Below are positions 4,058 through 18,487 of a stretch of DNA of 64,000 bases, one piece after another. The notes under the pieces are model-generated. The model did not search any database. It was not told where the DNA came from and saw only the letters and a list, made by a program, of their open reading frames with translations. The DNA is taken from assembly GCF_001695835.1 (NCBI RefSeq), contig NZ_MBSO01000001.1:1-64000 (forward strand). The letters are read 5' to 3'. The translations under genes and the position numbers were made by a program. The stretch comes from Ensifer sp. LC11 (GTDB lineage Bacteria > Pseudomonadota > Alphaproteobacteria > Rhizobiales > Rhizobiaceae). Each line of letters opens with the position of its first letter. Positions within the stretch are counted from its first letter, which is position 1.

Positions 4058-6619
4058 TCAGGTGCGCGGCTTCAGGTTCTCGGGGTCGTAGAGCGGCTTG
4101 TAGCCAACGCCGACGACCTCGACCGGATAGGTCTCGGCGAAATACTCGACGGTGAGCTTGCGGCCGACCTGGCAATGGGACCAGGGCAGATAGGCAAGCG
4201 CGATGTTCTTGCCGATCGTCGGTCCGAAGGCGATCGAAGTGGTGTAGGAGCGGCGGCCGAGTTCGTCGACCAGCACCTTGCCGGTTTCCGGATCCATCAC
4301 CGGCAGGGTGCCGACCGGATAGCGCTTGACGCCATTCTTGTCAGTGTTCTCAGTCAGCACGAGCGTGCAGAGCATGGCGGGCTGGTGCTCGCGTGCCTTG
4401 TATTCAAGGTGCTTGGCCTTGCCGCGGAAGTCGACGTCCTTGACCTTCGGACGGGCAAGGTCGGCCTCAATCAGGTTGTACTGGGTGAGAAGATCGGCGT
4501 TCTGCAGGCGCAGGCTCTTTTCCATGCGGCGCGAGTTGGCATAGGTTTCGACGCCGAAAGCCATGACGCCGGTTGCGCGCAGCGCGTCCCAGACGGCAAG
4601 CCCGTCCTCGTACTTCATGTGCAGTTCCCAGCCCTGCTCGCCAACATAGGAGATGCGGAAGGCGGTGACTTTTTTACCGGCAATCTCGATCGGTTTGATC
4701 GCAGCGAAGGCGAAGTTCTCGATGTCCAGACCGGCCGGGTCGGCAACCACCTTTTTCAGGTTCTCGCGGGCATTCGGTCCCCAGATACCGATGGTGACGA
4801 ACTTTTCCGAAACGTCGGTGATGGTGACGTCGAGGCCCCGATCCTCGGCGACGCGGCGCATGTAGTGGAAGTCGCGCGGGCCGGCGTCGGCGCCGTTCAC
4901 GAGACGGCCGCGGTCGGCCATGCGGAAGACGGTGAAGTCGGCCCGCACCATGCCCTCGTCGTCGAGGAAGTGGGTGTAGATGCCCTTGCCGATGTTGCCG
5001 TCGCCGCCGATCTTGGCGGCGCAAAGCCACTCAAGCAGCTCGACATGGTCAGGGCCTTCGATGTCGACCATGTGGAAGTGCGAGAGGTTGACGATGCCGC
5101 AATCCTCGCTCATCGCCAGATGCTCGGCGTTGGAGACGCGCCAGAAATGGCGGCTGTCCCACTCGTTCTGCCGCACCGGAACGCGATCGCCGTATTTTTC
5201 GAGCAGATGTTCGTTGGCGGCGTAGCCATGGGCGCGCTCCCAGCCGCCGAGCTCCATGAAGTAGCCGCCGAGTTCCTTCTCGCGCTCGTAGAAGGGCGAG
5301 CGCTTGACGTTGCGGCCGCTCGCATAGGGCTCGCGGGTGTGCACGGCGGGGTAGTAGATCTTCTGCGCCGCCTCGAAGCAGCGACCCTCGATGAACTTCT
5401 CCTCGAGCTGGTGCGGGTAGAAGCGGGAATAATCGATCGAGGCATGGTCGATCTCGGTGCGGCCGTCCGTCATCCAGTCGGCGATCAGCTTGCCGTAGCC
5501 GGGGCCGTCCTTCACCCAGATGGCGACGCAGTACCAGAGGCCGCGCACCTTCTGGCTCTCGCCGCAGGAGGGACCACCGGCGGCTGACACCTGCAGCAGG
5601 CCGTTGAAGGAGTGGCTCTCGTTGTAGCCAAGCTCGCCGAGGATCGGCGTCAGTTCCATGGCGCGCTCGAGCGGCTCGATGATCTGCTCCATCTCGAGGT
5701 CGCGCTGTGACGGCGACAGGCGCGCCTCATGCTTTTCAAGGATATTGCGCGGATGGCAGAGGCGGGGATTGGTGGTCTCGTAATAGCCCCACTCGATCTG
5801 GCCGCCTTCGGTGGTCTTCGGGTCACCGGTGTCGCGCATATAGGCCGAGTTGCCCTGGTCACGCAAAAGCGGGAAGCCGATTTCCTTGCCGGTGCCTTCG
5901 AATTCGTTGTACGGGCCGAAGAAGGTGAGCGGATGGTCGACCGGCATGACCGGCAGGTCCTCGCCGACCATTTCGGCGATGAGGCGGCCCCAGATACCGG
6001 CGCAAACGATGACATGATCGGCCATGATCGTGCCGCGATGGGTGACGACGCCCTTGATGCGGCCGTTCTCGACGATGAGCGACTTTGCCGGCGTGTTGCC
6101 GAAGACCTGGAGCTTGCCGGACTTTTCTGCCGCGTCGACGAGCTTGCCGGCAACGGTCTGCGAGCGCGGGATGACGAGGCCGGCGTCCGGATCGAACATG
6201 CCGCCCATCACCTGATCTTCCTCGATCAGCGGGAACATCTTCTTGATTTCAGCCGGCGAGACATAATGCGCGCGGGTGCCGAAGGCTTTTGCCGAGGACA
6301 GCTTGCGCTTGATTTCCTCCATCCAGACATCGTCGCCGGTGCGTGCGACTTCAAGGCCGCCGATGCGGGCGTAGTGGCCCATCTTCTCGAAGAAATCGAT
6401 CGAGTACTGCGTCGTCCAGACCGAGAGATAGTCGTGGCTGGTGGTGTAGCAGAAGTCCGAGGCATGCGCCGTCGAGCCGATATCGGTCGGCACGCCTGAT
6501 TTGTCGATGCCGACGATATCGTCCCAGCCGCGCTCGATCAGGTGATGCGCGATCGAGGCTCCAACGATGCCACCCAGCCCGATGATTACGACCTTCGCCT
6601 TTTGCGGAAACTCTGCCAT
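4058..6619 (-). CDS. DMGDH/sarcosine dehydrogenase-like FAD oxidoreductase fused to a GcvT domain
   Basis: An 853-aa two-part enzyme. Residues 1-380 are a DAO-type FAD oxidoreductase; the following linker resembles FAO_M, and about 480-850 form the folate-binding aminomethyltransferase (GCV_T plus C-terminal barrel) domain. The family oxidatively demethylates N-methylated glycines and passes the one-carbon unit to tetrahydrofolate. His52 in STAHAS lies where dimethylglycine and sarcosine dehydrogenases attach FAD covalently. The nucleotide-binding loop reads IIGLGGIVG, one residue longer than the usual GGGxVG. It is a single gene, with the ROK regulator divergent upstream. The exact substrate (dimethylglycine, sarcosine or another N-methyl amine) is not settled by sequence. 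Confidence 0.88.
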   Translation of the reverse strand: MAEFPQKAKVVIIGLGGIVGASIAHHLIERGWDDIVGIDKSGVPTDIGSTAHASDFCYTTSHDYLSVWTTQYSIDFFEKMGHYARIGGLEVARTGDDVWMEEIKRKLSSAKAFGTRAHYVSPAEIKKMFPLIEEDQVMGGMFDPDAGLVIPRSQTVAGKLVDAAEKSGKLQVFGNTPAKSLIVENGRIKGVVTHRGTIMADHVIVCAGIWGRLIAEMVGEDLPVMPVDHPLTFFGPYNEFEGTGKEIGFPLLRDQGNSAYMRDTGDPKTTEGGQIEWGYYETTNPRLCHPRNILEKHEARLSPSQRDLEMEQIIEPLERAMELTPILGELGYNESHSFNGLLQVSAAGGPSCGESQKVRGLWYCVAIWVKDGPGYGKLIADWMTDGRTEIDHASIDYSRFYPHQLEEKFIEGRCFEAAQKIYYPAVHTREPYASGRNVKRSPFYEREKELGGYFMELGGWERAHGYAANEHLLEKYGDRVPVRQNEWDSRHFWRVSNAEHLAMSEDCGIVNLSHFHMVDIEGPDHVELLEWLCAAKIGGDGNIGKGIYTHFLDDEGMVRADFTVFRMADRGRLVNGADAGPRDFHYMRRVAEDRGLDVTITDVSEKFVTIGIWGPNARENLKKVVADPAGLDIENFAFAAIKPIEIAGKKVTAFRISYVGEQGWELHMKYEDGLAVWDALRATGVMAFGVETYANSRRMEKSLRLQNADLLTQYNLIEADLARPKVKDVDFRGKAKHLEYKAREHQPAMLCTLVLTENTDKNGVKRYPVGTLPVMDPETGKVLVDELGRRSYTTSIAFGPTIGKNIALAYLPWSHCQVGRKLTVEYFAETYPVEVVGVGYKPLYDPENLKPRT

Positions 6620-7000
6620 TGATTGCGACCCTAGTTGGTTTGGAAGCCGGATTTTAGGGCTTGATACATCGCGACTAGAGCCTGTCTACGACATAATCAT
6701 CAAACTGCACGACCAGAGCCGAGCAATCTGTGGATCGCGGGACGAGAGTTGTCGAGACGGTCATGCCACTGATTTCGTGAGAAAAAGCGCCAGTGGGCGC
6801 AAGCGTGATCCTATCTAGCATATCGCAAATCCCGACGCATCCGAATGCGGCATCGCCGCCTCCTGCCGAATGCGGTTGCGGAATATTCCTGTTCCCCGTG
6901 GCAGCGGAGTTCGCCCCGAAAGATAATCCCATCGGGTAAGATTGACAGCGATGTCTGATATTAATAAGTTCGGTAACAGAACGAATTAAAAGAGGTCCCC
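6620..7000. other. Divergent intergenic region with no gene
   Basis: 381 bp between the divergent DMGDH-like and ROK genes. I see no convincing coding frame. A TTGACA (6942-6947) lies upstream of the ROK gene but no well-spaced -10 follows it. A long palindrome at 6961-6989 lies just before the ROK ribosome-binding site AGAGG (6991-6995). The remainder shows nothing I can assign. Confidence 0.6.
6961..6989. promoter_or_regulatory. Candidate ROK-repressor operator
   Basis: A 29-bp palindrome with perfect outer and inner arms: TTAAT-N2-GTTC-N7-GAAC-N2-ATTAA. Its AT-rich ends with TTC/GAA cores are broadly like NagC/Mlc-type ROK operators. It ends 11 bp before the GTG start of the ROK gene, a position suited to autorepression of the operon. 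Confidence 0.5.
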
Positions 7001-8212
7001 GTGAACGACAGCTTGCGCATCTCCCGGAAGTTCTCTCAGCGCTCCGTCATGGAGGCGATCGTCCAGGGTGGGCCGATTTCGCGTGCATCGATTTCCAAGC
7101 AGACTGGTCTTTCCAAGCAGACCATTTCGGAAATCGTTCGCGGTCTCGAGGAGGAGGGCTGGGTTCAGGAGACCGGCCGCACCAGCGGCCATGTTGGACG
7201 CACGGCCGTCACCTACGAACTGGTCTGCCATGCCGCCTTCATCATCGCTGTCGACCTCGGCGGCACGAAGGTGCGCGTGGCGATCACCGATCTCGCATGC
7301 CAGATCTTCGCCGAAGACACGGCGCCGACCGATCCGCGCGGCGGCCGCTTCGTTGTCGAGCAGATCGCCGCCATGGCTTTTGATGCGGCAGATCGGCAGA
7401 AGATCGCCCGCGAGAAGATCCGGCTCGCGGTGGTTGGCGTTCCGGGCGCACCCTGCAGCGAGACCGGCCGCGTGTTGCTCGCGCCGAACATCGCCGGCTT
7501 CGATACGATGGATGTCGTCGGCGCCTTCGAGGAAGTGCTCGGTTTTGGTGCCATGCTTGAAAACGACGTCAATCTCGCGGTTCTCGGTGAGAACTGGCTG
7601 GGGCAGGGGCAGGGCATCGACAATCTCGCCTATGTGGCGCTGGGCACCGGCGTGGGCAGTGGGCTGATGGTCGGCGGCCACCTGGTGCGCGGTGTCAGTA
7701 ATGCGGCCGGCGAAATGGGTTTCCTGCCGCTCGGCGCCGATCCGTTCGAGGCGGAATCGCTGCGCACCGGCGCCTTCGAGCGGGCCGTCGCATCGCACGG
7801 CATGGCGGAGCGCTATGCAGCACTTTCGGGCAAGACCGTTCCGGTGCCCACGATCTTCGCCAACGCGGAAGCCGGCGATGCGGCGGCCCTCACGGTGCTC
7901 GACGAGACCGCGAGGTTTCTCGCGGCCGGCGTTGCGGCGATTGCCGCGATCGCCAACCCGCAGAAAGTCATTCTCGGCGGATCGATCGGGCTGAGGCCGG
8001 AGATGCTAGCGCGGGTGAAAGCCTTCCTGCCGCAGTGTTTTCCCTATCCGGTCAATGTCGAGACGGGCGAGCTCGGTTCGCGCGCCGCGATCATCGGCGC
8101 TGCGGCGATCGGGCTTGGCCAGTTGCACAACACCCTGTTCGGGGTCGATGCGCCTGATGGCCGCATCTCGCTGCCCCGGGCAAACGTCACAGCACTTCGG
8201 GAGGCAATCTGA
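7001..8212 (+). CDS. ROK-family transcriptional regulator
   Basis: A 403-aa protein starting at GTG, with AGAGG five bases upstream. Residues 10-65 form a winged helix (ISRASISKQTGLSKQTISEIV) and about 85-380 a ROK sugar-kinase fold with the phosphate-binding DLGGTKVR and the GTGVGSGL motif. The cysteine-rich zinc motif seen in NagC/Mlc-type proteins is not evident. It overlaps the M20 gene (TGATG) and so heads a seven-gene operon with a CUT2 sugar importer. By analogy with XylR/NagC/FrcR-type ROK repressors it probably senses the imported compound and controls the operon through the palindrome upstream. Confidence 0.92.
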   Translation: MNDSLRISRKFSQRSVMEAIVQGGPISRASISKQTGLSKQTISEIVRGLEEEGWVQETGRTSGHVGRTAVTYELVCHAAFIIAVDLGGTKVRVAITDLACQIFAEDTAPTDPRGGRFVVEQIAAMAFDAADRQKIAREKIRLAVVGVPGAPCSETGRVLLAPNIAGFDTMDVVGAFEEVLGFGAMLENDVNLAVLGENWLGQGQGIDNLAYVALGTGVGSGLMVGGHLVRGVSNAAGEMGFLPLGADPFEAESLRTGAFERAVASHGMAERYAALSGKTVPVPTIFANAEAGDAAALTVLDETARFLAAGVAAIAAIANPQKVILGGSIGLRPEMLARVKAFLPQCFPYPVNVETGELGSRAAIIGAAAIGLGQLHNTLFGVDAPDGRISLPRANVTALREAI

Positions 8213-9471
8213 TGGCGACGAAGGACGGCTTGGTCGAACACTTGCGCTCAGCGCTCGACCGGGAGGCGGCGATCGACCTTTTTCGCGGTGCGATCGGGCG
8301 CGAGAGCATTACCGGCAATGAGGCGAACTTTGTCTCGTTTCTCGCCGAGACAATGCGGCATCCCAACCTGGAAGGGCTGACGACCGCCGAATTTCTGCCG
8401 GGCCGCCCGAATGTCTGGGCCGAGCGCAAAGGTGCTGGTAAAGGCCCGCGGCTGCTGTTCATCGGCCACACGGACACGGTGCATGTCGACGGCTGGCGCG
8501 AGCATTGGGCCGGCACCGAGCGCGAGGATCCCTTCGCCGCACCGATCATCGACGGTGCGGTCTGGGGCCGTGGTTCGGGCGATCTCAAGGCCGGTATCTG
8601 CGCGTCGCTTGCAGCGCTGTCGCTGCTTGACAAGGCCGGTGTCGAGCTTGCCGGCGACGTCAGCTTCGCCTTTGTCGGCGACGAGGAAAGCGGTCAGCCG
8701 GGCACCGGCGTGTCGGCGGGAATCAAGGATCTGGTCGGCCGGATCGAAGCTGGCGAAATCGCGCGGCCCGACTTTGTCGTCTATGTCGAGCCGACGCGGC
8801 TTTCGGTCTATCCGGCGCAGATCGGCTTTTTCATCACCGACATCACGATATCAGGCAAGTCGGCCTATTTCGGTGTACCGGAACTCGGCAAGGATGCGCT
8901 ACGCGCCAGCCACGCGGTGATGTCGGCTCTGTGGAAACACTCCGACGAGATTGCCGCACGCGCCGAACACAAGCTGATCGGCCGCAGTTTCCTGCTGATT
9001 ACGGGCCTTGCCGGCGGCGGCTATATTGCCGTGCCTGAACGCTGCACCCTGTCGCTGATCCGCAAGCTTCTGCCCGGTGACACGCTCGATACGGCAGCGG
9101 CCGAGATCGAAGCGGCGGTTCGCGCGGCGATCACCGACCCGGAGATCACCGTCGAGTTTTCCTATCCGGCGGGACGCGACCACGCGCTTGGCGGTACGGC
9201 TGCCGAGATCGACGAGACGGCAAGGGAAGTCGGCGCGCTATCGGCCTCAATGGCCGAAGCCATGGCCGGACGCGGCGTCATCGAAGGCGCACCCTTCTGG
9301 TCGGAATCGCCGTTCTTCGTCAATCGCCTCGGCATACCCGCCGTCTACTGCGCCCCGGGCGATATCCGCAATTGCCATACCTACGAGGAGCGGGTCGAGG
9401 TCGAGGAATACCTCGCCGGCGTCGTCGGTTTCGCCGCCTTCATGGCGCGCTACTGCGGCGTCATGGGCTGA
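8212..9471 (+). CDS. M20-family metallo-amidohydrolase/peptidase
   Basis: A 419-aa di-zinc hydrolase of the M20 (ArgE/DapE/CPG2) family. Metal and catalytic motifs appear in order: GHTDTVHV, GSGDLKAG, GDEESGQPG, VEPTRLSV and a C-terminal CHTYEERV with the last histidine ligand. The family removes an acyl or aminoacyl group from an amide. There is no signal peptide, so it acts in the cytoplasm. It lies between the ROK gene (one-base overlap) and two binding proteins, implying that the importer's substrate, or an intermediate, carries an amide bond. The substrate is unknown. Confidence 0.9.
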   Translation: MATKDGLVEHLRSALDREAAIDLFRGAIGRESITGNEANFVSFLAETMRHPNLEGLTTAEFLPGRPNVWAERKGAGKGPRLLFIGHTDTVHVDGWREHWAGTEREDPFAAPIIDGAVWGRGSGDLKAGICASLAALSLLDKAGVELAGDVSFAFVGDEESGQPGTGVSAGIKDLVGRIEAGEIARPDFVVYVEPTRLSVYPAQIGFFITDITISGKSAYFGVPELGKDALRASHAVMSALWKHSDEIAARAEHKLIGRSFLLITGLAGGGYIAVPERCTLSLIRKLLPGDTLDTAAAEIEAAVRAAITDPEITVEFSYPAGRDHALGGTAAEIDETAREVGALSASMAEAMAGRGVIEGAPFWSESPFFVNRLGIPAVYCAPGDIRNCHTYEERVEVEEYLAGVVGFAAFMARYCGVMG

Positions 9472-9497
9472 ACTGTTGAACAAGAGGGAGAGAGACA

Positions 9498-10559
9498 ATG
9501 CTTTTGAAGAAATTGATGGCTGCCGCACTCGTCAGCGGTTTCGTGCTTGCCGCAGGTGCCGCTTCCGCCCAAACGGTCGGTCCGTCCGGTGAGAGCGCGA
9601 CGCCGAGCGCCGACGTGGCCCTGACCGACGCCGATATCGGCGCGCTGAAGGGCAAGGGCTACAAGGCGGCGCTGCTGTGGCACACATCGTCGGATTTCAC
9701 CAATGCCGTTTCGGCCGGTGCCAAGGATGAATTCGCCCGTGCCGGCGTCGAGATCGCGGTGACGACGGATGCAGGTTTTGATGCCGCCCGCCAGCGCAGC
9801 GATATCGAAACCGCGCTTGCCGCCAAGCCGAACGTCATTCTGGCGTTGCCGCTTGACCCGGTGACCTCGGCCGAAGCGTTCCGCCAGGCCGTCACCGATG
9901 GCAGCAAGCTGGTGTTTCTCTCCAACCTGCCGAGTGGCTACAAGCAGGGTACCGACTATGCCTCGATCGTCACCGACGATCTCTACCAGATGGGCAAGCA
10001 GGCGGCCGACGCGCTGGCGAAGGCGATCGGCAGCAAAGGTAAGGTCGGTTACATCTTCCATGACGCCAGCTACTACGTGACCAACCAGCGCGACCAGGCC
10101 TTCAAGTCGACCATCGAAAAGGACTATCCGGATATCAAGATCGTTGCCGAGCAGGGCATTTCCGATCCGGCCCGCGCCGAAGAGCTGGCAAGCGCCATGC
10201 TTCTCCAGAACCCTGATCTTGACGGCATCTACGTGACCTGGGCGGAGCCTGCCGATGGCGTGCTTTCGGCTCTTCGTTCAAGCGGCAACACGAAGACCAA
10301 GATCGTCACGCTCGATCTTGCCGAACCGGTGGCGCTCGACATGGTCAAGGGCGGCAACGTCACCGTGCTTGTTGCCGACAAGGCCTATGAACTCGGACGG
10401 GCGATGGCTGCGGCCGGCCTGAAGTCGCTGCTTGGACAAGAGACCCCGGCTTTCGTGGTCGCACCGGCGCTGACTGTCACCAAGGAAAACGTTGCCGAGG
10501 GCTGGAAGCAGTCGCTCAATCGCGATGCACCGCAGTCGGTGCTCGACGCGGCCAAATAA
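9498..10559 (+). CDS. Sugar-type ABC solute-binding protein, first paralogue
   Basis: A 353-aa periplasmic binding protein of the RbsB/Peripla_BP_4 class. A signal peptide (residues 1-24, ending ASA-Q) precedes two alpha/beta lobes. GAGAGAG lies before the ATG. It is plainly paralogous to the next gene; both share long blocks such as KIVTLDL.EP.ALDMVKGGN and DPDLDGIYVTWAEP-type segments. It is followed within 10 bp by a stem-loop. Two tandem binding proteins serving one permease suggest two related ligands or a duplicated high-dose receptor. Confidence 0.9.
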   Translation: MLLKKLMAAALVSGFVLAAGAASAQTVGPSGESATPSADVALTDADIGALKGKGYKAALLWHTSSDFTNAVSAGAKDEFARAGVEIAVTTDAGFDAARQRSDIETALAAKPNVILALPLDPVTSAEAFRQAVTDGSKLVFLSNLPSGYKQGTDYASIVTDDLYQMGKQAADALAKAIGSKGKVGYIFHDASYYVTNQRDQAFKSTIEKDYPDIKIVAEQGISDPARAEELASAMLLQNPDLDGIYVTWAEPADGVLSALRSSGNTKTKIVTLDLAEPVALDMVKGGNVTVLVADKAYELGRAMAAAGLKSLLGQETPAFVVAPALTVTKENVAEGWKQSLNRDAPQSVLDAAK

Positions 10560-10566
10560 CCCGATG

Positions 10567-10596
10567 GCTGCCGGAAGAGAGGACGCTTCCGGCGGC
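10567..10596 (+). other. Intergenic stem-loop after binding-protein gene 1
   Basis: GCTGCCGGAA (10567-10576) pairs with TTCCGGCGGC (10587-10596) with one G-U pair and a 10-nt loop. There is no T-run; it is probably a 3'-protecting or attenuating hairpin inside the operon. Confidence 0.6.
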
Positions 10597-10618
10597 ATCA
10601 TCCTAAAGGGAGGCAGAC

Positions 10619-11683
10619 ATGCACAGGGCAGTGAGACATTTCGCGTTGCTGGCAACGGTCTTTGTCGCGACGTCGGGCTATGCCGCTGACGGCAAGACCA
10701 CCGGTCCGCATGGCGAGGCGCCGACGCCGGCCGGTACATTTGCGCTGACGGCGGCCGAAGAGCAGCAGGTCAAGGACGGCAAGTTTACCGCAGCACTCGT
10801 CTGGCACGAGATGAGCGAGTACACCAACGCGGTCAACAGCGGCGCCCATGACGAGTTCAAGCGGCTCGGCGTAGAGGTGGTCGCACAGACCGATGCCGGT
10901 TTTGATGCCGCGCGACAGAAATCCGATGTCGAGACGGTGCTTGCCAAGAAGCCTTCGATCATCCTGTCGCTGCCGGTCGATCCGGCGACGGCCGCCGTCG
11001 TCTACGATCCGGCTCGCACGGCCGGTGTGAAGCTCGCCTTCGTCGACAATTCTCCGGCCGGCTATGAGCATGGCAAGGACTATGTGACGATCGTCTCCGA
11101 CGATCTTTTCCAGATGGGCAACAAGGCGGCTGTTGCCATGGCGGATGCGCTCGGCGGCAAGGGCAAGCTCGGCTACATCTATCACGATGCCGATTTCTAC
11201 GTGACCAACCAGCGTGACGGCGCCTTCAAGTCGACGATCGAGCAGGATTATCCTGACATGAAGATCGTCGCCGAGGCCGGCATGGCCGATCCGGCCCGCA
11301 GTGAGGAGATCGCTCAAGGCATGATTACCCAGAACCCGGATCTCGACGGCATCTATGTGACCTGGGCGGAACCGGCTCTCAGCGTGCTGTCGACGCTGCG
11401 CGGCGCCGGCAACAGCCACACCAAGATCGTCACGCTCGATCTCAACGAGCCGGCAGCGCTCGACATGGTCAAGGGCGGCAACATTGCAGCCCTGGTCGCC
11501 GACGAAGCCTACAATATCGGCGTTACGGCGGCGCGCGCGGCGGCAGGGTCGCTGGTCGGCAAGACGGCCGAGCCGTTCCTGGTGGTCGACTCGCTTGCGG
11601 TCACCAAGGCCACCGTTGCCGACGGCTGGAAGAAGTCTCTGAACAAAGATGTGCCCGCGACGATCGCGGACGCGATGAAGTGA
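10619..11683 (+). CDS. Sugar-type ABC solute-binding protein, second paralogue
   Basis: A 354-aa periplasmic binding protein with a signal peptide (residues 1-21, ending GYA). GGGAGG lies before the ATG. It is collinear with the preceding gene over its whole length, including GFDAARQ.SD.ET.LA.KP in lobe 1 and YVTNQRD.AFKSTIE.DYPD in lobe 2. The differences cluster in the hinge and ligand-cleft segments (for example SNLPSGYKQGTDY versus VDNSPAGYEHGKDY), which could alter specificity. A RIME-like repeat follows the stop codon by six bases. Confidence 0.9.
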   Translation: MHRAVRHFALLATVFVATSGYAADGKTTGPHGEAPTPAGTFALTAAEEQQVKDGKFTAALVWHEMSEYTNAVNSGAHDEFKRLGVEVVAQTDAGFDAARQKSDVETVLAKKPSIILSLPVDPATAAVVYDPARTAGVKLAFVDNSPAGYEHGKDYVTIVSDDLFQMGNKAAVAMADALGGKGKLGYIYHDADFYVTNQRDGAFKSTIEQDYPDMKIVAEAGMADPARSEEIAQGMITQNPDLDGIYVTWAEPALSVLSTLRGAGNSHTKIVTLDLNEPAALDMVKGGNIAALVADEAYNIGVTAARAAAGSLVGKTAEPFLVVDSLAVTKATVADGWKKSLNKDVPATIADAMK

Positions 11684-11689
11684 TGCCAA

Positions 11690-11789
11690 CTGCATGTGTC
11701 CTTAAAAGTGGATTTGGGGACAAAACACGCAGCTTTTTCAAAGTGCTCCAGCGACCTTTGCGCGTCCAATATGACGCGCGGCGCTGTAG
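11690..11789. repeat. RIME1-like intergenic mosaic element, degenerate copy
   Basis: About 100 bp that aligns with the element at 33440-33542: TGCATG start, TCCTTAAA core, CAAAGTGCT.CAGCGACC.TTGCGCGTC middle and GACGCGCGGCGCTGTAG end. Its first palindrome is decayed, while the second (CAGCG...CGCTGTAG with the inner GCGCGTC/GACGCGC) is intact. Size and the two-palindrome layout match the Rhizobium-specific intergenic mosaic element as I recall it; the name is from memory. It lies between the second binding protein and the permease. Confidence 0.7.
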
Positions 11790-11827
11790 TGCAGGGGGAG
11801 AGTCCCCCTGCCTTCGGAGGAAGAATG

Positions 11828-12805
11828 ATGTCCAGTGCCCATTCCAGTGCGAGCGGCCAGCCGGCAAGCCTCGTCAATCGCCTCAACCTGCAGCAATACG
11901 TCGTCTATCTCGGCTTCCTGGTGATCTTTCTGTTTTTCGCCATCGTGTTGAAGGACAGCGGGTTCCTAACCGTTCGCAACCTTTCGAACATCATGCTGCA
12001 GACCGCACCGGTGACGATCATGGCAATCGGCCTTGTCTTCGTCATGTCGGCCGGCGAGATCGATTTGTCGATCGGATCGACGGTCGCCGTCTCGGCGCTG
12101 GCGGCGGCAGTGACGGTCAACGACTATGGTCTCGGCGCAGGTATCATTGCTGGGATCGGTGCCGGCCTTTTGATCGGACTTTTGAACGGCGTGCTCGTCG
12201 CCTATGTCAAGCTGCCGTCGTTCCTGGTTACGCTGGCGACACTCGGGCTTTTCGCCGGTGTCTCCCGTTCGATGACCAACCTGCGCTCGATCCCTGTGAC
12301 CGACAGCACGTTTACTGGCTTCTTCGGCTCGGGCTCGTTTCTCGGCGTGCCGTCGCTGATCTGGTGGACCGTGGTCGCGGTTGCCTGCGGCCATGTCATC
12401 TATCGGGAAACCCGCTTCGGCGCGCATGTGCTGGCAACCGGCGACAACAGCCGCGCTGCGAGCGTGTCGGGCATCAGCGTGCCGCGCATCCGGCTCGCCG
12501 TTCTGCTGATTAGCGGTGGCCTTGCCGGTCTCGCGGGACTGCTCTACGCCGGCCGCCTGCAGGCGGCCAAATACACGCTCGGCGAGACCGACCTGATGAC
12601 CGTGATCGCCGCCGTCATCGTTGGCGGCACGCTGCTCAACGGTGGCAAGGGTACGATCATCGGCGCGCTCGTCGGCTCGCTGATGATGGGCATGCTCAAC
12701 AACGGCCTGATCCTGATGGGCCTTTCCGTTTCCGACCAGATGATCGTTCGCGGTCTCATCATTCTCGCTGCGGTCGCCGTGTCGCTGCGCGAAAAGTCCC
12801 GCTGA
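11828..12805 (+). CDS. CUT2-type sugar ABC transporter permease (RbsC/FrcC-like)
   Basis: A 325-aa integral membrane protein with about eight to ten hydrophobic segments and the CUT2 signature GEIDLSIGS, followed by GLLNGVLVAYVKLPSFLVTLAT. ATGs at 11825 and 11828 are both possible; the second has the better spacing (7) from GGAGG. It forms the pore of the importer with the binding proteins upstream and the ATPase at 14028. A repeat element separates it from the binding-protein genes, but no new promoter is evident, so it probably belongs to the same transcript. Confidence 0.92.
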   Translation: MSSAHSSASGQPASLVNRLNLQQYVVYLGFLVIFLFFAIVLKDSGFLTVRNLSNIMLQTAPVTIMAIGLVFVMSAGEIDLSIGSTVAVSALAAAVTVNDYGLGAGIIAGIGAGLLIGLLNGVLVAYVKLPSFLVTLATLGLFAGVSRSMTNLRSIPVTDSTFTGFFGSGSFLGVPSLIWWTVVAVACGHVIYRETRFGAHVLATGDNSRAASVSGISVPRIRLAVLLISGGLAGLAGLLYAGRLQAAKYTLGETDLMTVIAAVIVGGTLLNGGKGTIIGALVGSLMMGMLNNGLILMGLSVSDQMIVRGLIILAAVAVSLREKSR

Positions 12806-12816
12806 AGGAGGCTTCC

Positions 12817-14016
12817 ATGTTTCTCGACGTTCTGCGCCGCCGCAACCCGGCATTCATCGAAGCGGCCATCGGCCTGCACCAGCAGGGCAAGATCCCGGCA
12901 AACGCCTATGTTCTGGACCTCGACGCGGTCGAGGCCAATGCTCGCACTCTGAGCGACGAGGCGCGTCGCCTCGGCCTGAAGATCTTTGCGATGACCAAGC
13001 AGGTCGGCCGCTCCAGTTCCTTCTGTGCAGCGGTAAAGCGCGGTGGCATCGACAGGTCCGTCGCTGTCGACATGGCCTGTGCCCGCGCCACCCACAAGGC
13101 CGGACTGAGGCTCGGCCATCTTGGCCACCTGCAGCAGGTCGCGCGCCATGAGGCCGCTGCCGCCGCGAAAGCGTTCCAGCCGGACTACTGGACCGTCTTC
13201 AATGACGAGAAGGCGAGCGAAGCGGCATCCGGTGCGAAAGCCGCCGGCTATCGGCAGGATCTGCTCGCCCGCATCCGTGCCGAAGGCGACACCTTCTACC
13301 GTGGCCACGAGGGCGGGTTCGACGCCGGCGACGTCGCCGCGGTCGCAGACCGGCTCGACGCCCTCGACGGCGGTCGCTTTGCCGGCATCACCACCTTTCC
13401 GGCGCTGCTCTTCGATCATGAAAGCCGCAAGGTGCGGCCGACGCACAATCTCGCAACGCTGTCGAAGGCTGCCGAGGCGCTGGCCAAAGCCGGGCGCAAG
13501 GGGATCGAGGTGAATGCCCCGGGCACGACCTCCAGCGTCATGCTTCCGGCGTTGGCCGAAGCGGGCGCGACGCAGTGCGAGCCGGGCAACGGCCTGCATG
13601 GCACCACGGCACTGCACGTGATGGAGGACCTGCCGGAACTGCCGGCGGTGCTCTATCTCACCGAGGTCTCGCATCTCTCGGGCGGCAAGGCCTATTGCTT
13701 CGGCGGTGGCTTCTACATCGATCCGATCTTTCCGGACTATGACGTCAAGGCGATCGTATCGGCCGAACCGACGACGTCGGCATCGGCGCTCAGAAGTGTC
13801 GAGGTGCCGCCGCCATCGGCGATCGACTATTACGCGATGATCGACCCCAGCGGTGCCGCAGCACCCAAGCCCGGCGACACCGTCGTGTTCGGCTTTCGCG
13901 GTCAGGCCTTCGTCACGCGCGCCTATGTCGTCGGCGTCTCCGGTATCTCCAAGGGCACGCCGAAGGTGGAAACGATCGAAAACGGTTTCGGCGAAACCGC
14001 AGCCTGGCCGGTTTGA
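12817..14016 (+). CDS. YhfX-like alanine-racemase-fold PLP enzyme
   Basis: A 399-aa fold-type III PLP protein. From memory it matches E. coli YhfX almost end to end: MF..L.R.NPA.IEAA at the N-terminus, an AMTKQVGR strand whose Lys should bind PLP, EPGNGLHGT, YC.GGGFY and VFGFR.QAFVTRA near the C-terminus. AAGGAGG precedes the ATG. YhfX has no proven reaction; relatives racemise or deaminate amino acids. Here it lies between a sugar permease and its ATPase, next to an M20 amidohydrolase, so it probably acts on an amino-acid-like part of the imported compound. Confidence 0.82.
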   Translation: MFLDVLRRRNPAFIEAAIGLHQQGKIPANAYVLDLDAVEANARTLSDEARRLGLKIFAMTKQVGRSSSFCAAVKRGGIDRSVAVDMACARATHKAGLRLGHLGHLQQVARHEAAAAAKAFQPDYWTVFNDEKASEAASGAKAAGYRQDLLARIRAEGDTFYRGHEGGFDAGDVAAVADRLDALDGGRFAGITTFPALLFDHESRKVRPTHNLATLSKAAEALAKAGRKGIEVNAPGTTSSVMLPALAEAGATQCEPGNGLHGTTALHVMEDLPELPAVLYLTEVSHLSGGKAYCFGGGFYIDPIFPDYDVKAIVSAEPTTSASALRSVEVPPPSAIDYYAMIDPSGAAAPKPGDTVVFGFRGQAFVTRAYVVGVSGISKGTPKVETIENGFGETAAWPV

Positions 14017-14027
14017 GGGGCGACGTC

Positions 14028-14786
14028 ATGAACGCGAACGTGAGTGCAGCAAACGAGCCGGTCCTGAAGCTGAAGGACATCCGCAAGACCTTTGGCGGCG
14101 TCACCGCCATCGAGAATTTCTCGCTGGACGTCCATCCAGGCGAGATCGTCGCGCTCGTCGGCGACAACGGTGCCGGCAAGTCGACGCTGATCAAGATCAT
14201 CTCCGGCGTCTACACGCCGACCTCGGGCACGATTACCATCGAGAACCAGACGGTGGCGATGTCGAACGCCACCATGGCGCGCGGCCACGGCATCGAGGTC
14301 GTCTACCAGGACCTGGCGCTTGCCGACCAGCAGACGGTCTACATGAACATGTTCCTCGGCCGCGAACCGGTAAACCGGTTCGGCCTGCTCGACCGTCGCC
14401 GGATGATCGCCGAGACCGAGACGCTGGTGAAGGAACTGGATGTTCGCATCCCCTCGGCCCATGCGACGATCCGCGACCTCTCCGGCGGGCAGCGCCAGGG
14501 TGTCGCCATTGCCCGCGCCACCCATTGGGCAAGCAAGCTGATCCTTCTCGACGAGCCGACGGCAGCACTCGGGGTTGCCGAAACCGCCAAGGTCGAGGAG
14601 ATCGTCGAATCCTTGAAGCGCCGCAACATCGGCGTGCTGATCATCAGCCACAGCCTCGACCAGGTGTTCAAGCTTTCGGATCGCATCTGTGTGCTCCGCC
14701 GCGGCAAGCAGATTGGCATCCGGGAGACGGCCAAGACCGACAAGAACGAGATCATTGCGATGATCACCGGGCTTCAGCAACATTGA
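14028..14786 (+). CDS. CUT2-type ABC transporter ATP-binding protein (single domain)
   Basis: A 252-aa ATPase with Walker A GDNGAGKST, signature LSGGQRQG, Walker B LILLDEP and the H-loop ISHSLDQ. It is a single nucleotide-binding domain, like rhizobial FrcA, not the doubled RbsA type. I chose the ATG at 14028 because GAGGGG lies about eight bases upstream; an in-frame TTG at 14013 overlaps the previous stop but lacks a suitable site. It energises the CUT2 permease at 11828 and closes the operon. Confidence 0.92.
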   Translation: MNANVSAANEPVLKLKDIRKTFGGVTAIENFSLDVHPGEIVALVGDNGAGKSTLIKIISGVYTPTSGTITIENQTVAMSNATMARGHGIEVVYQDLALADQQTVYMNMFLGREPVNRFGLLDRRRMIAETETLVKELDVRIPSAHATIRDLSGGQRQGVAIARATHWASKLILLDEPTAALGVAETAKVEEIVESLKRRNIGVLIISHSLDQVFKLSDRICVLRRGKQIGIRETAKTDKNEIIAMITGLQQH

Positions 14787-14892: not shown

Positions 14893-15267
14893 TTACGGCG
14901 CGGCACCAAAGAAGGCGAGGCGGGTGAAGAGCACGTAGTGCGATTCCGAGACCATGAGGGCTACGAAGACCAGCACCAGCAGCGGCGGCAGCAGGATCGC
15001 GTAGATCAGCGCCAGCCGCTCCCAGGCCATGTGCATGAAGATCGCGACGATGAGCCCTGCCTTCAGCACCATGAAGATCAGGATCAGCGACCACCTGAGA
15101 TAGCCTTGCAACCCGACATAGTCGACGAGATAGGAAAAGGTGCTGAGCACGAAGAGCAGCAGCCACACGACCAGGTAGAGGCCGATCGGGTGTTGCTGGT
15201 GCTCATGCGCCGGCGCCCGTGCTTCCGGCTGCGGTATAGTATGGGTGTGAACAGTCGTTTCTGTCAT
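14893..15267 (-). CDS. Cytochrome c oxidase subunit IV (prokaryotic, CtaF/CyoD-like)
   Basis: A 124-aa small membrane protein with a His/Pro-rich N-terminus (residues 1-28) and three hydrophobic helices. The central helix has the family motif LKAGLIVAIFMHMAWE. I prefer the ATG at 15267 because GAGG lies seven bases upstream; the ATG at 15273 would be almost on the ribosome site. It is the last gene of the oxidase operon, a few bases after coxP, and probably stabilises the enzyme complex. Confidence 0.85.
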   Translation of the reverse strand: MTETTVHTHTIPQPEARAPAHEHQQHPIGLYLVVWLLLFVLSTFSYLVDYVGLQGYLRWSLILIFMVLKAGLIVAIFMHMAWERLALIYAILLPPLLVLVFVALMVSESHYVLFTRLAFFGAAP

Positions 15268-15276
15268 GGCCATGCC

Positions 15277-15999
15277 TCACCACAGATAGAAGAATGCGAA
15301 GATGAAGACCCAGACGAGGTCGACGAAGTGCCAGTAGAGACCGGTGATCTCGACGATCTCGTATTGTCCTCTGCGGCTCGTGAAGAAGCCCCGCCGTTCG
15401 GTATCGAAATCGCCGCGCCAGACCTTGCGGGCGATGATCAAGAGGAAGATGACGCCGATGGTGACGTGGGTGCCGTGGAACCCGGTGATCATGAAGAAGG
15501 TCGAGCCGAATTGCGCCGCACCCCAGGGGTTGCCCCAGGGGCGCACGCCCTCGGTGATCAGCTTTGTCCATTCGAAGGCCTGCATGCCGACGAAAGTGGC
15601 GCCGAAGAGGGCGGTCAGAACCATGAGCAGGGCCGTCTTCTTGCGATCACGTCGGTAACCGAAGTTGACGGCCATGGCCATGGTGCCGCTCGAGGTGATC
15701 AAGACGAAGGTCATGATGGCAATCAGGATCAGCGGCACGTCGGAACCGCCGATATGGAGCGCAAAGACCTCGCTCGGATTGGGCCAGGGCACGGCGGTCG
15801 ACATGCGCGCCGACATGTAGGCGATGAGGAAGCAGCCGAAGACGAAGGTGTCGCTGAGGAGGAAGATCCACATCATCGCCTTGCCCCAGGAGACGTTCTT
15901 GAACGTCCGCTGGTCGGAGGCCCAGTCGGCAGCAAAACCGGCAAGTCCCGCCGGGCGGTGGAGCGGCTCTCTGACATGCGAATGTGTCTCGGCGGACAT
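15277..15999 (-). CDS. coxP: Alternative cytochrome c oxidase subunit III (CoxP-like)
   Basis: A 240-aa protein with about five to six transmembrane helices and heme-copper subunit III motifs (FFMITGFHGTHV, TGLYWHFVDLVWVFIF). The ATG at 15999 has AAGGAGCC upstream; the frame remains open further but that extension is Arg-rich and unlike the family. It is the second of two subunit III-like genes here, as in the Bradyrhizobium coxMNOP operon, where both coxO and coxP encode subunit III homologues. The symbol rests on that gene order and on remembered similarity. Confidence 0.82.
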   Translation of the reverse strand: MSAETHSHVREPLHRPAGLAGFAADWASDQRTFKNVSWGKAMMWIFLLSDTFVFGCFLIAYMSARMSTAVPWPNPSEVFALHIGGSDVPLILIAIMTFVLITSSGTMAMAVNFGYRRDRKKTALLMVLTALFGATFVGMQAFEWTKLITEGVRPWGNPWGAAQFGSTFFMITGFHGTHVTIGVIFLLIIARKVWRGDFDTERRGFFTSRRGQYEIVEITGLYWHFVDLVWVFIFAFFYLW

Positions 16000-16010
16000 G
16001 CCTTGGCTCC

Positions 16011-16715
16011 TTAGGTCAAGAGTTGCCGGCAGAGCTCGACGAAGTCGTTGGCCCAGCCGGAAAAGAGCGCGAAAAGCACCAGCCATACGGCCAGCATGAA
16101 GTGCCAGTAGGTGGCGCAAAGCGTGATCGACAGCACCCCCTTTTCGCCGATCGGGCCGGCGCGGGTTTTCAGGATCACCCGCGTAAGCGCGAACAGGCCA
16201 CCGAGGATGTGCAGGCCATGCATGCCTGTGATCATGTAGAAGAAGCTGTTGGCCGGATTGTCGGCGATGAGAAAGCCGGCATCGGTGAGTTCGCTCCAGG
16301 CAAAGACCTGGCCGGCGAGGAAGGCGAGGCCGGAGGCAAGGGCGGCGATGAGCGCCGTGCGGCTCGTCTCCTCACGATGCTGCTCGGCCGTGACACGGGC
16401 CGCATGAAGCAGCAGACTGCCGAGGCCGAGGATGGCGGTGTTGAGCCAGAGGATTCTCGGCATCGGCGTCGACCACCAGTCGGTGGATGCCATGCGCATG
16501 AAATAGGCGCTGATGAAGAGCGTGAAGAGCGCGCCGACAACCACCAGAAAGACGCCGAGCCCGATTTGCGCCGGCGCGATGACAGGCGGTCCGTGGGGGC
16601 GGGGATCATGGGTGTGGCCGACCTCCAGCCAGGGCTTCGAAAACAGCCGCTGATGCGCCAGCCACCAGCCGGCGATCAGGAGAATGACTGCCAGGAAGAC
16701 CAGGCTAACGCTCAT
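16011..16715 (-). CDS. coxO: Alternative cytochrome c oxidase subunit III-like (CoxO-like)
   Basis: A 234-aa membrane protein with six to seven predicted helices and the subunit III segments FFYMITGMHGLHILGG and CATYWHFMLAVWLVLF. It starts at the ATG at 16715, which overlaps the coxN stop (ATGA), so the two are translationally coupled. The N-terminal helix-cytosol stretch up to about residue 45 is divergent from ordinary subunit III. Two subunit III proteins in one operon is characteristic of the coxMNOP class. The protein does not carry redox centres itself. Confidence 0.82.
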   Translation of the reverse strand: MSVSLVFLAVILLIAGWWLAHQRLFSKPWLEVGHTHDPRPHGPPVIAPAQIGLGVFLVVVGALFTLFISAYFMRMASTDWWSTPMPRILWLNTAILGLGSLLLHAARVTAEQHREETSRTALIAALASGLAFLAGQVFAWSELTDAGFLIADNPANSFFYMITGMHGLHILGGLFALTRVILKTRAGPIGEKGVLSITLCATYWHFMLAVWLVLFALFSGWANDFVELCRQLLT

Positions 16716-18487
16716 GAGGCCTCCTCCGACGCAAGCCCAGCGGACCCTGGCTGGTTCTGCGGAATGAAGTCCTCGGCGGCGCCGGGCACGCTGTAATCGT
16801 AGGCCCAGCGATAGACGACCGGCAGTTCCTTCCAATTGCCGTGGCGCGGCGGGGTTTCCGGCGTCTGCCATTCGAGCGTCGTTGCCCGCCAGGGATTGCC
16901 ACCGGCCTCGCGTCCGTGGCGGATGCTCCAGATGAGGTTGAAGAGAAAGACGACCTGCGCGGCGCCGACGATCAGCGCCATGATGGTGATGAACTCGTTG
17001 AGCGTGTGGGCGGAGGCCGGGACGAAGGCGGCTTCGCCCATTTCGTAGTAGCGGCGCGGCATCCCGATGAGGCCAAGATAGTGCATCGGGAAGAAGATCA
17101 GATAGGCACCGACGAAGGTGACCCAGAAGTGAAGCTGTCCCATTGCCTCATTGAGCATGCGGCCGGTCACCTTCGGGTACCAGTGATAGATGGCGCCGAA
17201 GATGACGAGGATCGGCGCCACGCCCATGACCATGTGGAAATGCGCAACGACGAACATCGTGTCGGAAAGCGGCACGTCGACGACGACATTGCCGAGGAAC
17301 AGGCCGGTCAGTCCGCCATTGACGAAGGTGACGATGAAGGCGAGTGCGAAGAGCATCGGCAGCGTCAGGTGGATGTCGCCGCGCCAGAGCGTCAGCACCC
17401 AGTTATAGACCTTGATCGCCGTCGGCACGGCGATGATCAGCGTGGTCGTCGCGAAGAAGAAGCCGAAATAGGGGTTCATGCCGCTGACATACATGTGGTG
17501 CGCCCAAACGATGAAGGAGAGCGCGCCGATGATGACGATCGCCCAGACCATCATGCGGTAGCCGAAGATGTTCTTGCGGGCATGCGTGCTGATGAGATCG
17601 GACACGATGCCGAAGGCGGGCAGGGCGACGATGTAAACCTCCGGGTGGCCGAAGAACCAGAAGAGGTGCTGGAAGAGGATCGGGCTGCCGCCGCCGTGCT
17701 GCAGTTGCTCGCCCATTTCGACGATCGCCGGCATGAAGAAGCTGGTACCGAGCACGCGGTCAAACAGCATCATGACGCAGGCGACGAAGAGGGCGGGGAA
17801 GGCAAGCAGCGCCATGACCGTGGCTGTGAAGATGCCCCAGACGGTGAGCGGCATGCGCATCAGCGTCATGCCGCGGGTGCGGCCCTGAAGCACTGTCACG
17901 ACATAGTTGAGCCCGCCCATGGTAAAGCCGATGACGAAAAGAATGAGGGACGAGAGCATCAGGATGATGCCCCAGTCCTTGCCGCCGGGTGTGCCCGACA
18001 GCACCGCCTGTGGCGGGTAGAGTGTCCAGCCGGCGCCGGTCGGTCCGCCGGGTGCAAAGAAGCTTGCGACAAGCACGAGCACGGCGAGCAGATAGAGCCA
18101 GTAGCTCAGCATGTTGGCATAGGGGAACACCATGTCGCGCGCGCCGAGCATCAGCGGGATCAGGTAGTTGCCGAAGCCGCCGAGGAACAGCGCGGTCAAG
18201 AGGTAGATCACCATGATCATGCCGTGCATGGTGATGAACTGATAGTAGCGCTCGGCGTCGATGAAGGCGAAGGCGCCGGGAAAACCGAGTTGCAGCCGCA
18301 TCAGCCAGGAGAGCACCAGGGCGACCATGCCGATGGCGATCGCGGTCGAGGCATATTGCACGGCGATGATCTTGGCATCCTGGCTGAAGACGTAGCGCGT
18401 CCACCAGCTATGGGGATGATAAAGCTCGACGTCCTCCACTTCCGCGGGGCCAATCTGTTCGCCCGTGCCATGCCGGATATCGACCAT
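16712..18487 (-). CDS. coxN: Cytochrome c oxidase subunit I (CoxN-like)
   Basis: A 591-aa, 12-helix catalytic subunit of a heme-copper oxidase. CuB/heme motifs are intact: ITMHGMIM, FFGHPEVYI (His, Glu and the cross-linked Tyr), WAHHMYVSG, ATTTLIIAVPTAIK (K-channel Lys) and VAHFHMVMG. The HPEVY glutamate and the D-channel LGARDMVFPYAN place it among A-type enzymes. It reduces O2 to water and pumps protons. The order cytochrome c, II, I, III, III, IV fits the alternative rhizobial coxMNOP oxidase, not the main aa3 operon. Confidence 0.93.
   Translation of the reverse strand: MVDIRHGTGEQIGPAEVEDVELYHPHSWWTRYVFSQDAKIIAVQYASTAIAIGMVALVLSWLMRLQLGFPGAFAFIDAERYYQFITMHGMIMVIYLLTALFLGGFGNYLIPLMLGARDMVFPYANMLSYWLYLLAVLVLVASFFAPGGPTGAGWTLYPPQAVLSGTPGGKDWGIILMLSSLILFVIGFTMGGLNYVVTVLQGRTRGMTLMRMPLTVWGIFTATVMALLAFPALFVACVMMLFDRVLGTSFFMPAIVEMGEQLQHGGGSPILFQHLFWFFGHPEVYIVALPAFGIVSDLISTHARKNIFGYRMMVWAIVIIGALSFIVWAHHMYVSGMNPYFGFFFATTTLIIAVPTAIKVYNWVLTLWRGDIHLTLPMLFALAFIVTFVNGGLTGLFLGNVVVDVPLSDTMFVVAHFHMVMGVAPILVIFGAIYHWYPKVTGRMLNEAMGQLHFWVTFVGAYLIFFPMHYLGLIGMPRRYYEMGEAAFVPASAHTLNEFITIMALIVGAAQVVFLFNLIWSIRHGREAGGNPWRATTLEWQTPETPPRHGNWKELPVVYRWAYDYSVPGAAEDFIPQNQPGSAGLASEEAS

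Follow-up and report, generated by a model that had tools for sequence, protein, structure and literature searches.

A conserved YhfX-containing operon of Ensifer sp. LC11 and related bacteria, most likely for amino-sugar catabolism

INTRODUCTION

Which compound is consumed by an operon that combines a ROK-family regulator, an M20 amidohydrolase, a CUT2-type importer and a YhfX-like enzyme predicted to depend on pyridoxal 5΄-phosphate (PLP)? The question is raised by seven genes at positions 7001–14786 of a stretch of 64 000 nucleotides from Ensifer sp. LC11 (contig NZ_MBSO01000001.1, positions 1–64 000; hereafter, the window). A sequence-only reading of the window had proposed that these genes import a small sugar-like or amino-acid-bearing compound, that the M20 enzyme cuts an amide bond and that the YhfX-like enzyme racemizes or otherwise modifies an amino acid. 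We followed up this proposal by comparative analysis of the operon, its relatives and their neighborhoods. As far as our literature searches reach, the operon is an undescribed gene combination, most likely for amino-sugar catabolism, and its seven genes probably constitute a self-contained, ROK-controlled unit for an N-acylated amino sugar or an amino-sugar conjugate. We hold with moderate confidence that it feeds an amino sugar into glucosamine-6-phosphate (GlcN-6-P).

RESULTS

The seven genes form a conserved unit

The seven open reading frames of the sequence-only reading were recovered at the same coordinates, all on the forward strand. The ROK and M20 genes share one base (8212), and the gap between the M20 gene and the first binding-protein gene is 26 bases. 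As that reading had described, yhfX lies between the permease and ATPase genes with tight or overlapping junctions; the permease gene ends 11 bases before yhfX, and the ATG codon of the ATPase gene (14028) follows 11 bases past yhfX, or its alternative TTG start is overlapped by yhfX.

A single scan of genome contigs with YhfX as query gave 147 relatives, of which the best 80 were retained; 12 alphaproteobacterial stretches and three plasmid loci were added to these (95 loci). A partner gene was counted if it was >40% identical and on the same strand as yhfX, and flanks were regarded as full if they covered at least 7 kb upstream and at least 2.2 kb downstream of yhfX, which was the case for 79 of the 95 loci. 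In these 79 loci, yhfX was accompanied by genes for the ROK protein (76), the M20 protein (76), a binding protein (77), the permease (77) and the ATPase (77). The exceptions were an orphan yhfX (L141), a locus of Embleya (L148), whose ROK regulator was only 31% alike, and a locus from which only the ROK and M20 genes were missing (L086). The gene order ROK–M20–binding protein–permease–yhfX–ATPase recurs, and the flanks differ between lineages; a constant order within changing flanks indicates that the cassette is the unit and that its grouping is more than chance. The seven-gene cassette has stayed intact in numerous bacteria of soils and the sea.

The sequence-only reading had named YhfX-like and M20 genes in unrelated contexts as evidence that would count against it. 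In Alphaproteobacteria the two keep company, M20 and ROK genes standing with yhfX in 76/79 full-flank loci. Outside this setting, yhfX occurs without M20 in seven yhf-type loci (L142–L147 and L149), in Embleya, at the orphan locus and at L086. The orphan yhfX (55% identical; L141:9442–10650 in genome G947) has no importer, M20 or ROK gene beside it, and its neighbors are clpX and lon by our reading. At L086, yhfX, the importer genes and a SIS-family gene are kept, and neither ROK nor M20 was found in the 10 kb upstream, where the gene calls are broken.

The YhfX family is infrequent: it was found in 18 of 397 genomes sampled from the order, 4 of 385 from the class and 11 of 398 from the phylum, and 369 genomes around one gammaproteobacterium yielded no yhfX beyond the central genome itself. 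Nineteen plasmid records carry yhfX (13 alphaproteobacterial by name), and repeating the plasmid search with Embleya YhfX as query returned the same 19 records and none further. Sinorhizobium fredii NGR234 and Ruegeria sp. TM1040 (L150) are among the carriers.

Glucosamine-6-phosphate deaminase genes are linked to the operon

A SIS-family gene directly follows the ATPase gene in 19 alphaproteobacterial loci, and in L084 and L088 an unrelated NagB gene occupies the same place; the deaminase genes of these 21 loci all begin 1.94–2.05 kb from the yhfX start. When four of the SIS genes were compared with NCBIfam, NagB-II was the top family for each (283.6, 274.6, 243.7 and 305.2 bits), all four being under the NagB-II equivalog cut-off of 430 bits (NF046059). 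The NagB genes of L084 and L088 scored 265.3 and 263.7 bits, above the TIGR00502 cut-off of 236.9. The Protein Data Bank (PDB) relatives of the SIS gene of L104 include the GlcN-6-P deaminase 8eol (3.2e-60); of the two NagB genes, one was included in the PDB comparison.

We then tabulated what lies downstream of the ATPase gene in 91 loci: a deaminase gene in 21, an opposite-strand gene in 58, another co-directional gene within 150 bases in three or further off in seven, and too short a sequence in two. Where the next downstream gene was co-directional (31 loci), it matched a deaminase in 21. We also made a quick tree from 102 YhfX proteins, for which the program flags long branches, that of Embleya included; on this tree the SIS label changes 15 times, and at least eight of these changes are forced by well-supported branches. 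Moreover, the identities of the SIS proteins increase with those of YhfX across 19 loci, Embleya among them (Spearman 0.88; the pairs are not independent). This correlation suggests that the SIS gene is an old operon member that has frequently been lost, rather than one gained recently many times.

A separate cluster in Embleya joins yhfX to a kinase and a deaminase-like gene

Embleya sp. NBC_00888 (Actinomycetes) carries yhfX on a megaplasmid, in a run of genes for a ROK regulator with a helix-turn-helix (HTH) domain, an APC permease of amino-acid type, YhfX (42% identical), a ROK protein lacking the HTH domain, which is a sugar kinase by family, and a SIS protein. NagB-II is again the best family of the SIS gene (175.8 bits, versus the cut-off of 430). 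No M20 match was found in 25 kb of this locus. By its gene content, the run ties yhfX itself, beyond the operon, to predicted amino-sugar phosphate metabolism.

NagB-II co-occurs with yhfX in the same genomes

The yhfX and NagB-II samples of the order were taken as one set, because their size and genome handles agree. A NagB-II match (E ≤ 1e-45) was present in 18 of 18 genomes with yhfX and in 113 of 379 without it (Fisher's test, 9e-10). Counted by genus, NagB-II was present in 11/11 versus 46/142 overall (P = 1.7e-6). When 20 genomes were searched directly, 19 contained a NagB-II match of 1e-54 or better; in the genome with the orphan yhfX, the sole match was of 33% within a frame of 670 residues, which is what GlmS would produce. 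NagB proper had matches in seven of these 20 genomes, none of them over the cut-off. In the genome of strain LC11 itself, a NagB-II-like gene (47%) is found in trans, at C4. It lies in a separate nag-type locus (L155:6660–12925), together with a NagA-like gene, a GntR-type regulator, a BadF-type kinase, a MurQ-like gene and a CUT1 importer with its binding protein, the names other than NagB-II having been read from translated starts.

YhfX and the M20 hydrolase

The yhfX gene (12817–14016, forward strand) encodes a fold-type III PLP enzyme (YhfX-like_C, 9.2e-26; Ala_racemase_N, 5.3e-12). The C-terminal domain PF21279 scored 90.7 bits against a gathering threshold of 27, and Ala_racemase_N (PF01168) scored 46.3 against 24.1. 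Lys61, which we infer to be the PLP lysine, is invariant in an alignment of 30 YhfX sequences, 28 of which were used for the model. The structural model (predicted local distance difference test score, pLDDT, 92.4) is closest to the YhfX crystal structure 4KBX, which dates from 2014 (TM-score 0.91), followed by D-threonine aldolases, alanine racemases, D-threo-3-hydroxyaspartate dehydratase and a putative D-serine deaminase. In the profile search, the next relatives were D-3-hydroxyaspartate and D-threonine aldolases, with weak matches (2e-4 to 1e-3) in the N-terminal barrel only. Several such fold relatives act on D-configured amino compounds with a β-hydroxyl group, and C2 and C3 of glucosamine are arranged likewise.

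YhfX proteins of the operon type and the yhf type are distinguished by 21 fixed differences, including H164 to Q and H267 to N; at these positions, the Embleya protein is operon-type at 11 and yhf-type at four. Two of the yhf-type loci have further genes of possible interest. In the yhf operon of Cetobacterium somerae (L149:6994–8022), an amidase-family gene (weak Pfam match) is found besides a phosphotriesterase-related gene, and amide hydrolases may thus recur beside yhfX. At L145:251–4582, the yhf operon lies behind genes for a CUT1-type ABC transporter, a DeoR regulator and a glycerophosphodiester phosphodiesterase, which is a possible hint at yhf substrates.

The M20 gene (8212–9471, forward strand; Pfam Peptidase_M20, 4e-25) encodes an ArgE/DapE-like di-metal amidohydrolase, for which we propose an N-acyl deacylase function. 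Its structural model (pLDDT 92.9) has DapE and ArgE as closest fold neighbors, and its best family is the ArgE/DapE deacylase TIGR01910, the score of 137.2 bits being under the cut-off of 217.6. M20 enzymes of the ArgE/DapE type take N-acyl amino acids as substrates. The set H-x-D, D, EE, E and H of M20 enzymes (H86, D88, D124, E158, E159, E193 and H389), which we take to be the metal and catalytic positions, is invariant in 23 aligned proteins. Tyr219 is equally invariant in the 23 proteins and replaces the His that is usual in M20 enzymes at the start of the dimerization domain; the aligned DapE 7uoi has His. Because Tyr219 stands at this position throughout, the operon proteins form, by sequence, a distinct M20 subfamily.

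The ROK protein and the importer

The ROK gene (7001–8212, forward strand; Pfam ROK, 4.7e-45) starts with GTG, preceded by AGAGG, and its product has an N-terminal HTH domain and keeps the ATP and catalytic motifs of kinases. Among 85 operon ROK proteins, DLGG[TA] was conserved in 83, NDVN in 84 and GTGxGxG in 85, and the HTH-bearing relative 2hoe is without the ATP motif. The ROK relatives comprise kinases and repressors of mixed specificity, and it is possible that the operon protein is a regulator and a kinase in one.

The importer consists of two CUT2-type periplasmic binding proteins, tandem paralogues that are 59% identical to each other (9498–10559, Peripla_BP_4 8.8e-42; 10619–11683, Peripla_BP_4 4.2e-37), a CUT2 permease (11825–12805, alternative start 11696; BPD_transp_2 4.1e-41) and a half-size CUT2 ATPase of 252 amino acids (14028–14786, alternative TTG start 14013; ABC_tran 4.8e-33), all on the forward strand and all with Pfam matches. 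In 87 related operons with M20 and permease genes, 58 have two binding proteins and 29 have one. The best PDB match of binding protein 1 was the sugar-binding protein 2ioy (71 bits), from which no ligand could be assigned; it differs from 2ioy at several positions that we presume to be the ribose contacts of RbsB, and it may bind something other than a plain sugar. The CUT2 importer proteins scored under the cut-off for each of the sugar-importer equivalogs listed.

A predicted operator covers the −10 region

Upstream of the ROK gene, a −35 element TTGACA (6942–6947, forward strand) is followed 17 bases downstream by a conserved, imperfect inverted repeat, TWAGTTCG-N9-CGAAYTAA (6965–6989), which we predict to be the operator. 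We scored the 24-base operator consensus on the same upstream regions from which it was derived: 66 of 84 regions matched with at most five mismatches, and the best of 420 shuffled regions had eight. In 73 of 83 upstream regions, the operator is preceded at 15–19 bp by a TTGACA-like hexamer (at least 5/6 bases), compared with approximately 2% of shuffles. Given this spacing, the operator would cover the expected −10 region, as for a repressor. A generic promoter scan did not report the TTGACA promoter, and in the window alone the operator pattern at three mismatches did not exceed chance (two matches were reached in 19 of 100 shuffles); it is conservation that supports the operator. In the draft genome of strain LC11 (73 contigs), the operator is the only place at two or fewer mismatches, and the reversed pattern gave seven chance matches. 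Because there is a single site, the ROK protein seems to control this seven-gene operon alone.

Flanking genes

Two groups of neighbors were considered as pathway members and were rejected or found no support. Trehalose-synthesis and glycosyltransferase genes downstream of one related operon (L027) belong to clusters common to nine loci and look like common synteny. Next to the operon in the window lies a dimethylglycine/sarcosine dehydrogenase-like gene (4058–6619, opposite strand); of the best 80 of 147 relatives, L026 alone holds a close copy of it, and L093 and L096 gave weak 28% matches. The largest cluster of flanking genes besides the operon genes (30% identity; ~245 residues) occurs in 14 of 80 loci, in varied places. 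Directly behind the operon, cytochrome oxidase-type genes were read from translations on the opposite strand (14893–18487), and Rfam gave a single match at the gathering threshold in the whole window, a tRNA gene (32–105).

DISCUSSION

A putative pathway can be assembled from these components, each of whose reactions, together with the repression and the substrate, we infer. One of the two binding proteins would hand the compound to the CUT2 importer, and the cytoplasmic M20 enzyme would strip its acyl group to leave a free amine. YhfX would then act on this amine to give glucosamine, by C2 epimerization or by a glucosamine-releasing PLP lyase reaction. The glucosamine would be phosphorylated, perhaps by the ROK protein itself, and a GlcN-6-P deaminase would yield fructose-6-phosphate and ammonia; some species have the gene for this deaminase within the operon, and strain LC11 apparently has it elsewhere in the genome. 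The ROK protein may repress the operon by binding the operator over the −10 region. PLP chemistry requires a free primary amine, and M20 is missing where an amino-acid-type permease imports; an M20 deacylase ahead of a PLP enzyme, and its absence there, are consistent with import, deacylation, the PLP step, the kinase and the deaminase in this order.

The linked NagB-II and NagB genes, the ROK kinase and the ROK regulators point to an amino sugar ending as GlcN-6-P. Several observations nevertheless weigh against this reading. The tested SIS genes and that of Embleya all fall short of the NagB-II cut-off, and the Embleya case is a single record. Most operons carry no adjoining deaminase, the downstream gene being on the opposite strand in 58 of 91 loci, so that the link in those operons rests on genes elsewhere. 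Relatedness and genome size confound the co-occurrence with NagB-II: in the family to which the window belongs, NagB-II was found in 4/4 genomes with yhfX and also in 15/17 without. A second route must serve some other substrate, because strain LC11 already possesses a nag-type locus elsewhere. In the alphaproteobacterial operons, we saw no gene for a separate kinase, and the zinc motif CxCGxxGC and the GE[LMI]GH histidine are present in 0/85 operon ROK proteins, which argues against an ordinary sugar kinase; the Embleya ROK kinase also lacks the zinc motif.

For the YhfX step, the candidates are C2 epimerization, a lyase reaction on a conjugate, or dehydration of glucosaminate if the deaminase serves another product, and we give any single one of them a low probability at best. 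The boldest is epimerization; that YhfX is a C2 epimerase of an unacylated amino sugar (e.g. mannosamine to glucosamine), with M20 as obligatory prior deacylase and the ROK protein as both repressor and amino-sugar kinase, is unlikely in this specific form.

Dehydration of glucosaminate would belong to a different route, in which N-acetyl-D-glucosaminate (GlcNAc1A, from oxidized chitin) is deacetylated by M20 and converted by YhfX, as a D-glucosaminate dehydratase, to 2-keto-3-deoxygluconate (KDG), similarly to the OngB/OngC route of marine Gammaproteobacteria, the deaminase serving the accompanying N-acetylglucosamine. Glucosaminate is an amino acid, which suits the ArgE/DapE fold neighbors of M20; Embleya has a permease of amino-acid type, the fold of YhfX resembles those of D-amino acid dehydratases and aldolases, and the Ong pathway likewise proceeds from a deacetylase to a PLP-enzyme-like deaminase (PMC9537276). 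However, that route ends at KDG 6-phosphate (KDG-6-P) and not at GlcN-6-P (PMC9537276), whereas the recurrent partner here is a GlcN-6-P deaminase, and OngB is a D-aminoacylase-like barrel (PMC12017989) rather than an M20 protein, although a different deacylase could replace it. On this evidence, glucosaminate is an improbable substrate.

Similarly doubtful is a glucosamine–amino acid conjugate, a special case of the amino-sugar reading in which the amide is cleaved by M20, or an O-glucosaminyl amino acid is split through β-elimination by YhfX itself, and the glucosamine half proceeds to GlcN-6-P. This would fit the deaminase, the Embleya permease and the likeness of YhfX to the D-serine deaminase fold, but nothing in the data favors a conjugate over the epimerase version, and we know of no abundant substrate of this kind. 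Racemization of an amino acid released by M20, as the sequence-only reading had it, draws on the alanine-racemase-type fold, the ArgE/DapE-type M20 fold and the near-universal M20–yhfX pairing in Alphaproteobacteria; it leaves unexplained the deaminases and the cluster in Embleya, in which yhfX adjoins genes for a ROK kinase and a NagB-II-like protein and M20 is absent, and we regard it as improbable. That the deaminase is a passenger beside a plain sugar operon in some species, as the 58 opposite-strand neighbors might suggest, is also unlikely, given that the deaminase gene lies at one offset in 21 loci and comes from two unrelated families, and given the correlated SIS and YhfX identities (Spearman 0.88), the at least eight forced label changes and the separate Embleya cluster.

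We thus retain the feeding of an amino sugar into GlcN-6-P as the preferred reading. Of the earlier interpretation, one operon for one pathway, with an importer, an amide hydrolase and a PLP enzyme, is upheld, and racemization as its central reaction gives way to an amino-sugar step. Its statement that the combination matches no described pathway also agrees with our search, as the gene combination was not found in the open-licence literature; nor were the phrase 'glucosaminate dehydratase' or the terms PLP, mannosamine, epimerase and GlcN-6-P deaminase together. In that literature, among the matches listed, no title concerned the function of YhfX, the function of the yhf operon or D-mannosamine catabolism by such a route, and a looser search listed no title on a PLP amino-sugar epimerase.

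If the preferred reading is correct, rhizobia and marine Alphaproteobacteria, which meet chitin, cell-wall and glycan debris, would use amino sugars by way of PLP chemistry on a free amine. Through gene neighborhoods in two phyla, the operon ties a branch of YhfX to GlcN-6-P metabolism, giving the family its first testable role; a small set of substrates is named, and the predicted promoter and operator are available for a reporter.

Four known systems can be compared with the operon. The YhfX protein of the E. coli yhf operon (PDB 4KBX) is 37% identical over a nearly full-length alignment. The yhf loci L145 and L149, unlike the operon, carry YhfT, DUF2620 (YhfU), a YhfW-like metalloenzyme, YhfZ and a phosphotriesterase-like protein, and no M20 or CUT2 importer genes; YhfT, YhfU, YhfW and YhfZ are not among the seven operon genes. 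The ong cluster of Pseudoalteromonas prydzensis removes the acyl group before a step by a deaminase compared with PLP enzymes, under a dedicated repressor (PMC9537276, PMC12017989); this order and such a repressor are also proposed for the operon. The cluster differs in that its deacetylase OngB is a D-aminoacylase-like barrel where the operon has M20, its transporter is of the SSS type and its product is KDG, the route ending at KDG-6-P (PMC9537276, PMC12017989), with no GlcN-6-P deaminase among the steps described. The importer resembles CUT2 monosaccharide importers of the ribose and rhizopine type, which likewise consist of Peripla_BP_4, BPD_transp_2 and a half-size ATPase. Finally, the classical nag pathway shares its last step, GlcN-6-P deaminase, with the operon variants, and ROK-type proteins occur in both, whereas the operon is without NagA, and deacylation by M20 would probably precede phosphorylation. 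If the epimerase version holds, the operon would represent a complete amino-sugar route that bypasses those intermediates of the nan and nag pathways that are both acylated and phosphorylated.

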